Of a stretch of 64,000 nucleotides of DNA, positions 42,231 through 51,962 are shown one piece after another. Source of the stretch: an uncultured Pelagibacteraceae bacterium (GTDB taxonomy: Bacteria > Pseudomonadota > Alphaproteobacteria > Pelagibacterales > Pelagibacteraceae); assembly GCA_902616675.1 (NCBI GenBank), contig CACMTV010000001.1:186001-250000 (forward strand), read 5' to 3'. The translations under genes and the position numbers were made by a program. The notes under the pieces are model-generated. The model was given only the letters and a program-made list of their open reading frames with translations, was not told the origin of the DNA and did no database searches. Numbering within the stretch: position 1 is the stretch's first letter; every line of letters begins with the position of its first letter.

Positions 42231-44303
42231 TTAAGCTACGGCTTGTTTAATCGACAGTTTTACTTTTCCTCTATCAAAACCAAGAACTTTTACAGATACT
42301 TCATCACCCTCTTTTACAACATCTGTAACTTTAGCGACTCTTTTTCCTGCAAGTTCTGAGATATGAACAAGACCGTCTTGTTTTCCTAGAAAATTTACGA
42401 AAGCACCAAATTCCATTATTTTTACTACTTTGCCTTTATAAATTTTACCTACTTCTGGCTTTGCTATTAATCCTTTAATGATCTCAATAGCAGCATTTCT
42501 TGATTTTTCATCAGGCGCTGCCACAGTAACTTCTCCAGTATCTTTTACGTCAACTTTTGCTCCAGATGTTTCGACAATTTCTCTAATCGTCGCTCCACCT
42601 TTACCAATTACTGTCGCTATATCTTTTTTATCGACTTTAATTGTTTCAATTTTTGGAGTGTGTTTTGAAAATTCTTTTCTCGATGTTTTTATAGCTTTGT
42701 TCATTTCGTTCAAAATATGCTCTCTGCCAGCCTTAGCTTGATTTAAAGCTTGTTCCATAATTTCAAAAGTAATTCCTGTTATTTTTATGTCCATTTGTAA
42801 AGATGTAATACCATCTTTTGTTCCTGCTACTTTAAAATCCATATCACCTAAATGATCCTCATCTCCTAAAATATCAGATAAAACTGAAAACTTTTCACCC
42901 TCTTTAATTAAACCCATGGCTATTCCTGCAACTGGTTCTTTAATTGGTACACCTGCATCCATTAGTGACAAAGATGTTCCGCAGACTGTTGCCATTGAAG
43001 AAGATCCATTTGACTCAGTAATCTCAGATACTACTCTTAGAGTATAAGGGAAATTTTCTTTTAATGGTAATGATGAGTTGATAGCTCTCCATGCTAATTT
43101 ACCATGGCCTATTTCTCTTCTACCTGTTCCTATTCTGCCACACTCACCAACAGAAAAAGGTGGAAAATTGTAATGCAACATAAAGCTCGATCGTTGCATA
43201 CCGTCTAAACTTTCTAGTCTTTGTTCATCGTCAGACATACCTAAAGTTGTGACTACTAACGCTTGGGTTTCTCCTCTTGTAAATAAAGCTGATCCGTGTG
43301 TTCTTGGTAAAACACCTACTTCACATTCAATTTTTCTAACATCAGCAAGACCTCTACCATCAATTCTTTTTTTCTCTTTTAAAATTGCAGTTCTTACAAT
43401 ATCTTTTTCAAGGGATTTTAATTGAGCCATAGCTTGATTTTCTGTTACGCTTTCATCTTCCTTAAACATTTCTTTACACTTGGCATCAATTTCTGAAATA
43501 GCTGTTGATCTTTTTTTCTTATCAACTTCTTTAAAAGCTTTTCTTAGATCGGCTTCAAATTCTTTAGCTATTTTTTTCTTTAGTTCTGAATTATCGATTT
43601 CTTCTACTTCCCATTTAGGCTTGCTAGCTTTTTTTGCTAATTTTTCAATTGAATTTATTACTGGTATGAATTTTTCATGGCCAAATTTAACTGCATCTAG
43701 CATAATTTTTTCTGATAACCCTGAAGTTTCAGACTCTACCATTAAAACAGCTTCCTTAGTTCCAGCAACAACTAAATCTAATTCTGAAGTTTTTAATTCT
43801 TCTTGAGATGGATTTAAAATATATTTCCCGTCCTTAAAACCCACTCTGCTTGCAGCTATAGGTCCCTGAAAAGGTAAGCCTGATATTGATAAAGCTGCAG
43901 AGGAAGCTATAATTGAAAGAATGTCCGGCTGATTTTCTCCATCATAAGATAAAACAGTTGGCAATAACTGCACTTCATTCATAAAACTTGATGGGAACAA
44001 AGGTCTAATAGGTCTATCAATTAATCTAGAAATTAAAGTTTCAGATTCTGTCGGTCTGGCCTCTCTTTTGAAGTAACCGCCGGGTATTTTTCCAGCAGCA
44101 TAATATTTTTCTTGGTAATTTACCGATAAAGGAAAATAATCTTGACCTTCATTTAATTTTTTTGCCCCAACTGCAGTAGCAATTACGACTGTTTCTCCTA
44201 ATTTGGCTATTATTGCTCCATCGGCTTGTCTAGCAATTTTACCAGTTTCAAGAGTTAATTTTTTACCGCCAAAATCTATTTCTTCTTTGTGAATTTTAAA
44301 CAT
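42231..44303 (-). CDS. pnp: Polyribonucleotide nucleotidyltransferase
   Basis: A 690-residue PNPase with two RNase PH cores (about 1-210 and 305-530), a KH domain ([15 protein letters not shown]) and a C-terminal S1 domain ([20 protein letters not shown]). Catalytic-core motifs [15 protein letters not shown] [12 protein letters not shown] and [19 protein letters not shown] are present. It degrades RNA phosphorolytically from the 3' end. Its ATG overlaps the stop of the RbfA-S15 fusion gene by one base, placing it at the end of the nusA-infB operon. Confidence 0.96.
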
Positions 44304-44935
44304 TATTTTCTCAGACTCAGTTGTTTTATAATTTTTTCATACGAGTCAGGTTTTCTTCGTTTAAGATAACTTAATAGTTTTTTCCTTTTATTTACTGACT
44401 TCGATAAACCCATAGTAGAATGTTTATCTTTTTTAAATTTTTTAAAATGGACTGCCAATTTTTCAATTTTATCACTTAACAAACCAATTTGTACTTCTGC
44501 CGATCCGACATCAGATTTATTTATTGCTAGGGACTTAATTATATCTTTTTTTTCTGTTTCATTTTTTTTATTTTCTTTAATTAACTTTTCAATCTTTTCA
44601 GCATATTCGAAAGATTTATCTTCAATAAAGTTGAGTTTTGGAAGAAATTTTAAACTTAGCTTTTTTGATAAGGCTCTTCTAACAATATGTGCGTTATCAG
44701 TCAATATACCTACTATTTCTTTCATGTCTATGCCACCTAGGGGTATCACATAAACCCTAGCTGTTTTCAAGTCTGGGGTCATCCTAACTTCAGTAACAGT
44801 AATGAAACGTGAATTAAATGAAGATATTTTTGTCTCATTTTTTATAAAAATTTCTCCGATGCTTTGCTTCACAAGCTCTCCAACTCTTAATTGCCTCTGA
44901 GAATATCCTTTATTCGATAAATCACTATTAATCAT
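44303..44935 (-). CDS. rbfA-rpsO: RbfA-S15 fusion: ribosome-binding factor A joined in frame to 30S ribosomal protein S15
   Basis: One 210-codon frame. Residues 1 to about 122 are a complete Rbf[36 protein letters not shown], and the C-terminal [19 protein letters not shown]. Residues about 126-210 are a complete S15: [38 protein letters not shown], and the ending IIKQLSLRK. The joint ([12 protein letters not shown]) has no in-frame ATG, GTG or TTG. Two A8 runs (on + strand, T8 runs at about 44525-44532 and 44562-44569) flank an out-of-frame ATG there. truB normally separates these genes. Both parts look full length. This may be a real fusion, a slippage-dependent arrangement or a pair of homopolymer sequence errors. 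Confidence 0.85.
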
Positions 44936-47124
44936 AAAGTTCTCTCAATCTTTTCTATTTGGTAAGACTCTATAATATCTTTTTCTTTAAAATCTATAAA
45001 ATCTCTTAAACTTATCCCACATTCTAAACCATTTTTAACTTCTTTAACCGCATTTTTTTCTCTAAAAATACTCATAATTTCACCATCATATACAACAGCA
45101 CCATCTCTAACTATTCTCGCTTTGGATTTATTTTGTATTTCACCTTCAATTACTTTTGAGCCTGCTATTTGTCCAAATTTTGAAACTTTAAATATTTTTT
45201 GTACTTCAGCAGATCCCAGTGAAATTTCTTTTACATCTGGCTCTAGTAGACCAGATAATCTTTTTTCAATATGTTCTATCGCTTCATAAATTATATTAAA
45301 ATATTTAACTTCTATTTTTTGTTCTTCAGCTATTTTTTTTGCTTCTCTATTAGGTTTTACATTAAAGCCAATTAATACAGCGTTAGAGGCTTTGGCTAAT
45401 GAAACATCAGTTTCATTAATCATACCAATATCTGATAAAATAATTTTAGTTTTAACTTCTGGATGAACAATCTTTTCAATTGCCATTTTGAGTGCTTCAC
45501 TTGATCCATGAACATCAGATTTTATAATAACGTTTAATTCTTCTTTGTCTTCACCTTTGTCAAAAATTGTTGATTTATCATTTATTAAAATTTTCTTTTT
45601 AGAATTTTGATTTTTAAATTCCGAGATTTCCTTAGCTTTATCCTCATCTTCAGTCACTAAAAACTCTGCACCCGCAAAAGCTGTATCGTTCATTCCAAGG
45701 ATTTCTACAGGCATCGATGGAAAAGCCTCATTTAAAGAAGTTCCATCATGACTAATCATGGCTCGAATTTTTCCCCACGTTTTACCGCAAGCAAAATAAT
45801 CTCCTTTATTTAATTTTCCATTTGAAACTAAAATTGTTGAAACAGGACCTTTTCCTTTATCAATTTTAGATTCTATAACTACGCCAGTAGCTTTATCTGT
45901 GATAGAAGCTTTTAAATCTAGAATTTCAGATTGCAATAAAATACTCTCTTTAAGTTTATCTAAATTTGTTTTTTTTGTAGCAGAAACTTCAACGAATAAT
46001 GTGTCCCCACTTAAATCCTCCGCGACCAACTCATATCTCATCAAATCATTTTTAATTTTTGAAACATTTTTATTCGGTAAATCAGACTTATTAATTGCTA
46101 CAATAATTGGAACTTTTGCGGCTTTAGCGTGGTTTATAGCTTCTATAGTTTGTGGTTTTATTCCATCATCTGCAGCTACAACTAAAACCACTATATCTGT
46201 AATTTTAGATCCTCTGGCTCTCATTTCTGTGAAAGCTGCGTGCCCTGGTGTATCTATAAATGTAATTTGTTGATTATTATTTGCTTTCACTTGATAAGCC
46301 CCTATGTGTTGTGTTATGCCGCCAAATTCATTTGAAACGACATTTGATTGTCTCAGTGCATCTAAAAGTGAAGTTTTTCCATGATCAACGTGTCCCATTA
46401 TAGTTACTACAGGTGGTCTTTTTTTAATTGTACCACTCATGGATTTATTTTTATTGATTTCCTCTGGTTGAGAATTTTCTATGATTGCCTTATGACCAAA
46501 TTCTTTAACAATATATTCAGCTGTGTCTTTATCAATAGCATGATTAATCGTTGCTATTACCTTCATATTCAGTAAAAACTTTATAATATCACTGGATTTT
46601 TCAGCCATTCTATTTGATAACTCTTGAATAGTAATTTGTTCAGGAATTTTTACTTCTTTAATAACTTTTTTGTATTCTTTTTTTTCTTCTGTTTCAGGAG
46701 TATTCTTTTTTTCTTTCAATCTAGCTCTTTTTACAGCAGCTAGACTTCTTTGTTTTATCTCAATTTCTTCAACATTAAGTGCTCTTGAAACAGTTAGTTT
46801 AAAATCTCTTTTATCTATTGGAGTTTTAAGCTTTAATTTGCTTTTTCCAGTGGGTTTTTCATCTTTCTTGATAAATGCTTTAGTAGCTTCTTGTTCTACA
46901 AACTTTCTTGTAAATTTTTTGCTTTTATTCTCATGATTTTTAAAATTTTGATTAAAAGCGTTTGTTTTTTTAAAGTTTTTTGATGGTTTAAATAAATTTT
47001 TTTTATCGCTTGGTATGGAGTACGCCTTTTTGTTTTCATTTTTTGAAAGAGAGCTAGAGTCAATTTTTTTTTTAAAATTTGACGAAATTGTTAATGTTTT
47101 TTTCTTTTGTTTTTCTTTATCCAT
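44932..47124 (-). CDS. infB: Translation initiation factor IF-2
   Basis: A 730-residue GTPase. A Lys-rich low-complexity N terminus (about 1-165) is followed by the IF2_N domain, the G domain with GHVDHGKT near 244, IDTPGHAAF and NKSD, and C-terminal domains ending in the fMet-tRNA-binding region (NGLECGISLRDFIDFKEKD in two adjoining parts). It is shorter than many alphaproteobacterial IF-2 proteins because the N-terminal extension is reduced. It lies between nusA (3-bp gap) and the RbfA-S15 gene (4-bp overlap). Confidence 0.96.
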   Translation of the reverse strand: MDKEKQKKKTLTISSNFKKKIDSSSLSKNENKKAYSIPSDKKNLFKPSKNFKKTNAFNQNFKNHENKSKKFTRKFVEQEATKAFIKKDEKPTGKSKLKLKTPIDKRDFKLTVSRALNVEEIEIKQRSLAAVKRARLKEKKNTPETEEKKEYKKVIKEVKIPEQITIQELSNRMAEKSSDIIKFLLNMKVIATINHAIDKDTAEYIVKEFGHKAIIENSQPEEINKNKSMSGTIKKRPPVVTIMGHVDHGKTSLLDALRQSNVVSNEFGGITQHIGAYQVKANNNQQITFIDTPGHAAFTEMRARGSKITDIVVLVVAADDGIKPQTIEAINHAKAAKVPIIVAINKSDLPNKNVSKIKNDLMRYELVAEDLSGDTLFVEVSATKKTNLDKLKESILLQSEILDLKASITDKATGVVIESKIDKGKGPVSTILVSNGKLNKGDYFACGKTWGKIRAMISHDGTSLNEAFPSMPVEILGMNDTAFAGAEFLVTEDEDKAKEISEFKNQNSKKKILINDKSTIFDKGEDKEELNVIIKSDVHGSSEALKMAIEKIVHPEVKTKIILSDIGMINETDVSLAKASNAVLIGFNVKPNREAKKIAEEQKIEVKYFNIIYEAIEHIEKRLSGLLEPDVKEISLGSAEVQKIFKVSKFGQIAGSKVIEGEIQNKSKARIVRDGAVVYDGEIMSIFREKNAVKEVKNGLECGISLRDFIDFKEKDIIESYQIEKIERTL

Positions 47125-51500: not shown

Positions 51501-51962
51501 CTAATATAATTTTTTAAGAAGCTTTTTTTCAATAACATTCATTTTTTTATAATTAGACTCTAGTTTATGGTCATAACCAAATAAATGAACTAAGCCATGT
51601 ATCCACAGTACATCCAAATGTTTTTTAAAAGAAATTTTAGACGAAAAATTAATTTTTTTTAAATTTATTATCACATCTCCTAAATAAATTTTAATTTTTT
51701 TTTTTTTTAATATAGCTAAATTTTTTTTTGTTTGATTTGGAAAAGATAAAATATCAGTTGATTTATTTTTTTTTCGAAACTTTTTGTTAAGAGCTTTTAT
51801 TTCTTTTGAACCAGAAAGTTGTAGACTAAAAGAATAACTTTTTTTTTCAAAAAATTTATCGTTTTTAATTTTTTTAATTTTGTGTTTTAAATAAGTTTCC
51901 GGATTTTTTATAAATTTTAACCAGGATTTATCTTTGACGATAACATTAATCTTTATCATCAA
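51501..51962 (-). CDS. ybeY: Endoribonuclease YbeY, rRNA maturation
   Basis: A 153-residue metalloendoribonuclease with the zinc motif H-x3-H-x5-H at His122, His126 and His132 (HGLVHLFGYDH) and the family motifs KSTDILSFP and YLGDVIIN. It acts in 16S rRNA 3' end maturation and ribosome quality control. The protein is strongly Lys-rich. It overlaps phoH by 17 bp. The alternative start at the second Met changes nothing of note. Confidence 0.94.
   Translation of the reverse strand: MMIKINVIVKDKSWLKFIKNPETYLKHKIKKIKNDKFFEKKSYSFSLQLSGSKEIKALNKKFRKKNKSTDILSFPNQTKKNLAILKKKKIKIYLGDVIINLKKINFSSKISFKKHLDVLWIHGLVHLFGYDHKLESNYKKMNVIEKKLLKKLY

Follow-up and report, generated by a model that had tools for sequence, protein, structure and literature searches.

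Judging from its sequence and from those of its relatives, the open reading frame that joins RbfA to ribosomal protein S15 in the analyzed stretch of DNA (64,000 nucleotides, here called the window) most likely does not represent an evolved fusion protein. The explanation that we favor, with slightly better than even confidence, is that the window holds an ordinary overlapping rbfA-rpsO pair from which a single A is missing, the base having been lost in amplification, sequencing, or assembly and not in the cell. Either such a sequence error or, alternatively, a very recent mutation likely lies behind the missing base.

A single frame of 210 codons on the minus strand (positions 44303 to 44935 of the window) carries the rbfA and rpsO domains with no stop codon between them, confirming the observation from which this analysis started. 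Full RbfA runs straight into full S15, as the original prediction had described: the RBFA domain (Pfam PF02033, 86.8 bits, cut-off 34.7) covers residues 14 to 119 (44579 to 44896, minus strand), and the Ribosomal_S15 domain (PF00312, 87.9 bits, cut-off 31) covers residues 129 to 209 (44309 to 44551, minus strand). The sharing of one frame by both domains is a feature that would be expected of an evolved RbfA-S15 gene fusion. According to the ORF list and Pfam, the frame is flanked on the same strand by infB (IF-2; 44932 to 47124) upstream and by pnp (PNPase; 42231 to 44303) downstream. The joint was also correctly described, in that it has no in-frame ATG, GTG, or TTG and holds an out-of-frame ATG (44562 to 44560, minus strand) between two A8 runs. 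The final A of the first run (44562 to 44569, minus strand) is the A of this ATG, and the second run (44546 to 44553, minus strand) reads as T8 on the plus strand. The ATG, out of frame with rbfA, aligns with the rpsO start of related genomes; here it opens only the short reading ATG AAA CAG AAA AAA AAG ATA TAA (MKQKKKI and a stop). The TAA at which rbfA ends in relatives (44535 to 44537, minus strand) lies in a different frame from the fused one.

The two genes probably became neighbors through the loss of truB. It had been claimed that truB usually stands between rbfA and rpsO, which holds for all 12 truB loci examined (L111 to L118 and L168 to L171) but not for the window's own genus. In a first set of 41 genomes, TruB was found in 14, comprising 14 of the 16 from a sister family and none of the 25 from the window's genus, its own genome included. 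A second set, of 147 genomes from the window's family, yielded TruB in 28, all of them in four other genera, and none was found in a genus-mate. The adjacency of rbfA and rpsO is thus put down to the loss of truB in this genus, an event that likely joined the two genes. TruB is the tRNA pseudouridine-55 synthase, the enzyme that normally makes a tRNA modification of wide occurrence, and the window's genus would lack it. In the loci shown from genus g7, a stop codon and a short spacer separate rbfA from rpsO.

To compare the junction among relatives, we kept the best 80 of the 404 found, 73 of which are named AG- or AH- and which we take to be single-cell genomes. Both genes were present in 79 of these loci, S15 not being found in the remaining one (L084), and in none of the 79 were they fused. 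A search of genus genomes gave a match in 143 of 169, and among the matches listed only the window's own genome matched residues 1 to 210 without interruption; the others listed showed RbfA alone, S15 alone, or stops between the two. The retention in related genomes that an evolved fusion would lead one to expect was therefore not found, and the comparison does not support the view that the fusion is permanent and a stable trait.

What relatives have instead is an overlap. Their junction typically reads ATGAAACAGAAAAAAAAAGATATAATTAA or some variant of it, in which rpsO begins at the ATG and rbfA stops at the TAA in the other frame. With the rpsO start placed at the closest in-frame ATG or GTG, and the overlap measured from the first base of that codon to the rbfA stop, rpsO was found to overlap rbfA in 76 of the 79 loci: by 29 nt in 71, 26 nt in three, 23 nt in one, and 20 nt in one. 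In two of the other three, the rbfA stop lies directly before the rpsO ATG, and in the third there is a gap of 12 nt. One locus (L043:3374) uses GTG, not ATG, for its rpsO start within rbfA, with S15 in frame. The longest A run past the rpsO start counts nine bases in 56 loci, seven in 17, and eight in three, while runs of 5, 6, and 11 occur in one locus each. The window belongs to the same arrangement, since its rpsO start codon lies within rbfA and the old rbfA stop is still present just downstream, as the alignment shows. Its overlap (44535 to 44562, minus strand) is, however, 28 nt long instead of the prevailing 29, and it is one base shorter there than all 20 aligned relatives, the difference falling within the second A run. 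At the first run, the same 20 relatives differ by substitution and are all equal in length.

The loss of one A from an A9 run appears to be the simplest event, because the locus tree groups the window with L042 and L043 (support 0.81), its nearest loci, both of which carry A9. We also considered that a C was lost from the GACAAAAAAAG form found in some near relatives, a loss that would yield the window's letters; the placing of the window beside A9 loci favors the A9-to-A8 change. These results bear in two ways on the original prediction, which overall was partly supported. Its suspicion of a homopolymer shortfall was right insofar as a base is missing, but two errors are not needed: one A in the second run suffices to restore the 29-nt overlap of 71 of the 79 relatives, and the first tract can stay as it is, because in relatives rbfA continues beyond the rpsO start to its own stop. 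Alignment of the locus did reveal the separate rbfA and rpsO genes that had been proposed as a check, although not with nine As in both tracts, as only the second run differs in length; the predicted ATGA junction is not what relatives show.

The favored reading would accordingly run as follows. The tight junction would have arisen through the loss of truB, leaving the state still seen in relatives, with rpsO starting inside rbfA in the other frame and A9 as the commonest run. What would keep the run in place is that each of the two overlapping frames has a lysine-rich end at this point. With one A absent from the second run, the two frames coincide and are read as one gene; in the cell the base would be present, so that separate RbfA and S15 would be made. 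That the cell instead makes a permanent RbfA-S15 fusion, working as one protein or cut by a protease, we consider very unlikely. The frame is indeed open through both full domains, and the window's own assembly (903 kb in 15 contigs, 72% complete) yielded no further copy of rbfA or rpsO. However, the fusion was seen in this one genome only, across the 79 loci and the matches listed for the 143 genus genomes, and the joint is unchanged beyond the missing base, with the old start and stop kept. Moreover, RbfA acts during ribosome assembly and departs from the mature 30S subunit.

Apart from this joint, the assembly looks clean, which weighs against a simple sequence error. We compared relatives' ORFs of at least 90 amino acids with the window, counting as intact those recovered over 93% of their length, a criterion that lets indels within the final 7% of a gene escape detection. 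Among the ORFs with a match, 58 of 60 from G074, 46 of 47 from G142, and 55 of 56 from G057 were intact, the rest being those cut by the ends of the window; 2, 13, and 2 ORFs, respectively, had no match. Over 196 kb of the window's own contig, 189 genes are shared with G074, and the rbfA-rpsO joint was the sole frameshift seen; viewed from the rbfA of G074, this joint itself counts as intact. The other nonintact cases in that comparison (three in each direction) were mismatches at gene or contig ends with no second piece in another frame. In favor of an error, a common single-cell workflow is benchmarked at 3.0 indels per 100 kb in the parts of the reports available to us (PMC5712423, PMC8443664), although this rate may not fit the present genome; at that rate 175 kb of coding sequence should hold about 5, against the single frameshift seen. 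The window's ORFs contain 92 A/T runs of at least eight bases, two of them in the 210-codon frame. The longest in-ORF homopolymer of this census is a T14 run (51695 to 51708) in an ORF on the minus strand (51501 to 51962).

The cleanness of the compared part of the contig speaks for a different explanation, which we regard as possible but well short of an even chance: a real and recent A8 allele, with S15 made from its own ATG through a −1 ribosomal shift at A_AAA_AAG or through an A added by RNA polymerase, and with the fusion made by those rbfA ribosomes that do not shift. This heptamer (44545 to 44551, minus strand) is a potential −1 shift site in phase with the rpsO ATG, as in programmed frameshifting of the dnaX type, and a −1 shift on AAA-AAG would yield MKQKKKDIIKS, the start of S15 in relatives such as L042. 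According to the available part of one report, −1 shifting on A_AAA_AAG in Escherichia coli is tied to a sole tRNA-Lys (PMC5009743). Among 26 tRNA places in the window's genome, and among 28 in its relative G137 (98% complete), tRNA-Lys(UUU) was the only lysine tRNA found. Likewise, the accessible portion of a study of Blochmannia suggests that frameshifts in A/T runs of its genes may be corrected by slippage (PMC3017870). However, the heptamer is no sign of selection, because it arises whenever this A9 loses one A, and A_AAA_AAG occurs in frame 17 times in the window's ORFs of at least 150 amino acids (19,491 codons). A stimulatory stem-loop 3′ of the site was not found beyond chance (z of −0.70; 51 of 200 shuffled sequences fold at least as well). 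Nor is the need for a shift conserved, since rpsO in relatives is open from its own start without one. As to the polymerase, the part of a reporter study open to us describes E. coli RNA polymerase as slipping little on A runs: slippage was undetectable on A runs shorter than eight, and there was barely any fluorescence on the runs tested except 5% on T7 and 10% on T8 (PMC6260861). Finally, the fused frame was not seen in a second genome, either in the 79 loci or among the matches listed for the 143 genus genomes. Among the literature matches listed, no title or abstract opening dealt with an RbfA-S15 fusion or rpsO recoding in SAR11; the "Trub" of one of those papers (PMC4256733) is a species code. 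The stronger form of this idea, in which this SAR11 species makes the fusion from every unshifted rbfA ribosome and obtains free S15 only by −1 frameshifting at A_AAA_AAG, seems doubtful to us.

The prevalence of A9 in 56 of the 79 loci and of the 29-nt overlap in 71 could also suggest that the overlap is a genus-wide programmed slippage site, making a little RbfA-S15 fusion on purpose. We think this highly improbable. Of the 76 overlapping loci, 20 lack A9 and have both genes open, nine near relatives among them carrying GACA7 or AACA7, for which reason we did not accept A9 conservation as a sign of programmed slippage. Furthermore, AAA already makes up 87% of the lysine codons in the window, and reading in two frames would by itself restrict the run to A.

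Unplaced fused frames recur in the large protein database, which again speaks for a real allele. Among the 120 matches listed, 69 were fused RbfA-S15 proteins, 58 of them single sequences and 11 representing 2 to 31 member sequences. The largest clusters have 31 (P0008), 28 (P0060), and 15 (P0014) members, and four fused proteins (P0003, P0010, P0025, and P0037) each occur on two or three contigs. We did not take these fusions as proof of a real one, as normal ends are seen in only 32 of the 69. The other 37 are abnormal at the N or C terminus, many with an evident out-of-frame tail, although in P0015 the departure is limited to a variant C terminus and contig ends may have truncated some others. 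Database fusions thus often look like products of indel-noisy assemblies, but with 11 of the 69 standing for several sequences, real fused alleles in other SAR11 species are possible. Among the matches listed, the closest full-length fusion is 86% identical to the query (P0002) and a shorter one 89% identical over 59% of it (P0095); a cluster of separate RbfA with 936 members is 95% identical over 62%. P0001 was rejected as a fusion because it is a duplicated RbfA. Outside the 69, P0065 (8 members, 4 contigs) has an RbfA-S15 frame with an in-frame methionine at the joint (NWYNMKNQ), which may reflect an in-frame overlap or a TGA called as Trp by the gene caller, and P0101, from one contig of 1034 bases, has a fused frame with another joint and no A run, resembling sequences of genus g7.

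The case illustrates how, in AT-rich genomes, apparent "fusion" ORFs can result when an overlap between genes loses just one base. If the A8 allele were true, it would be a natural case of a ribosomal protein dependent on recoding, with the supply of S15, a primary 16S-binding protein, hanging on a slip.

Among known systems, the E. coli dnaX site, as far as the available part of its description goes (PMC5009743), shares with the window the heptamer, here in rpsO phase, and tRNA-Lys(UUU) as the only lysine tRNA found, but here there is no stem-loop beyond chance and the heptamer follows automatically from the deletion. The A-run frameshifts of Blochmannia and Buchnera, in the portion of the report that we could draw on (PMC3017870), resemble it in being single-base indels in a translation gene of an AT-rich genome with frames otherwise intact, whereas the indel here fuses two genes and was seen in one genome. 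The overlapping rbfA/rpsO pairs of other genomes of the genus differ from it in that the window is one A short, so that the frames coincide; the neighbors, the rpsO ATG, and the old rbfA stop are the same in the alignment.
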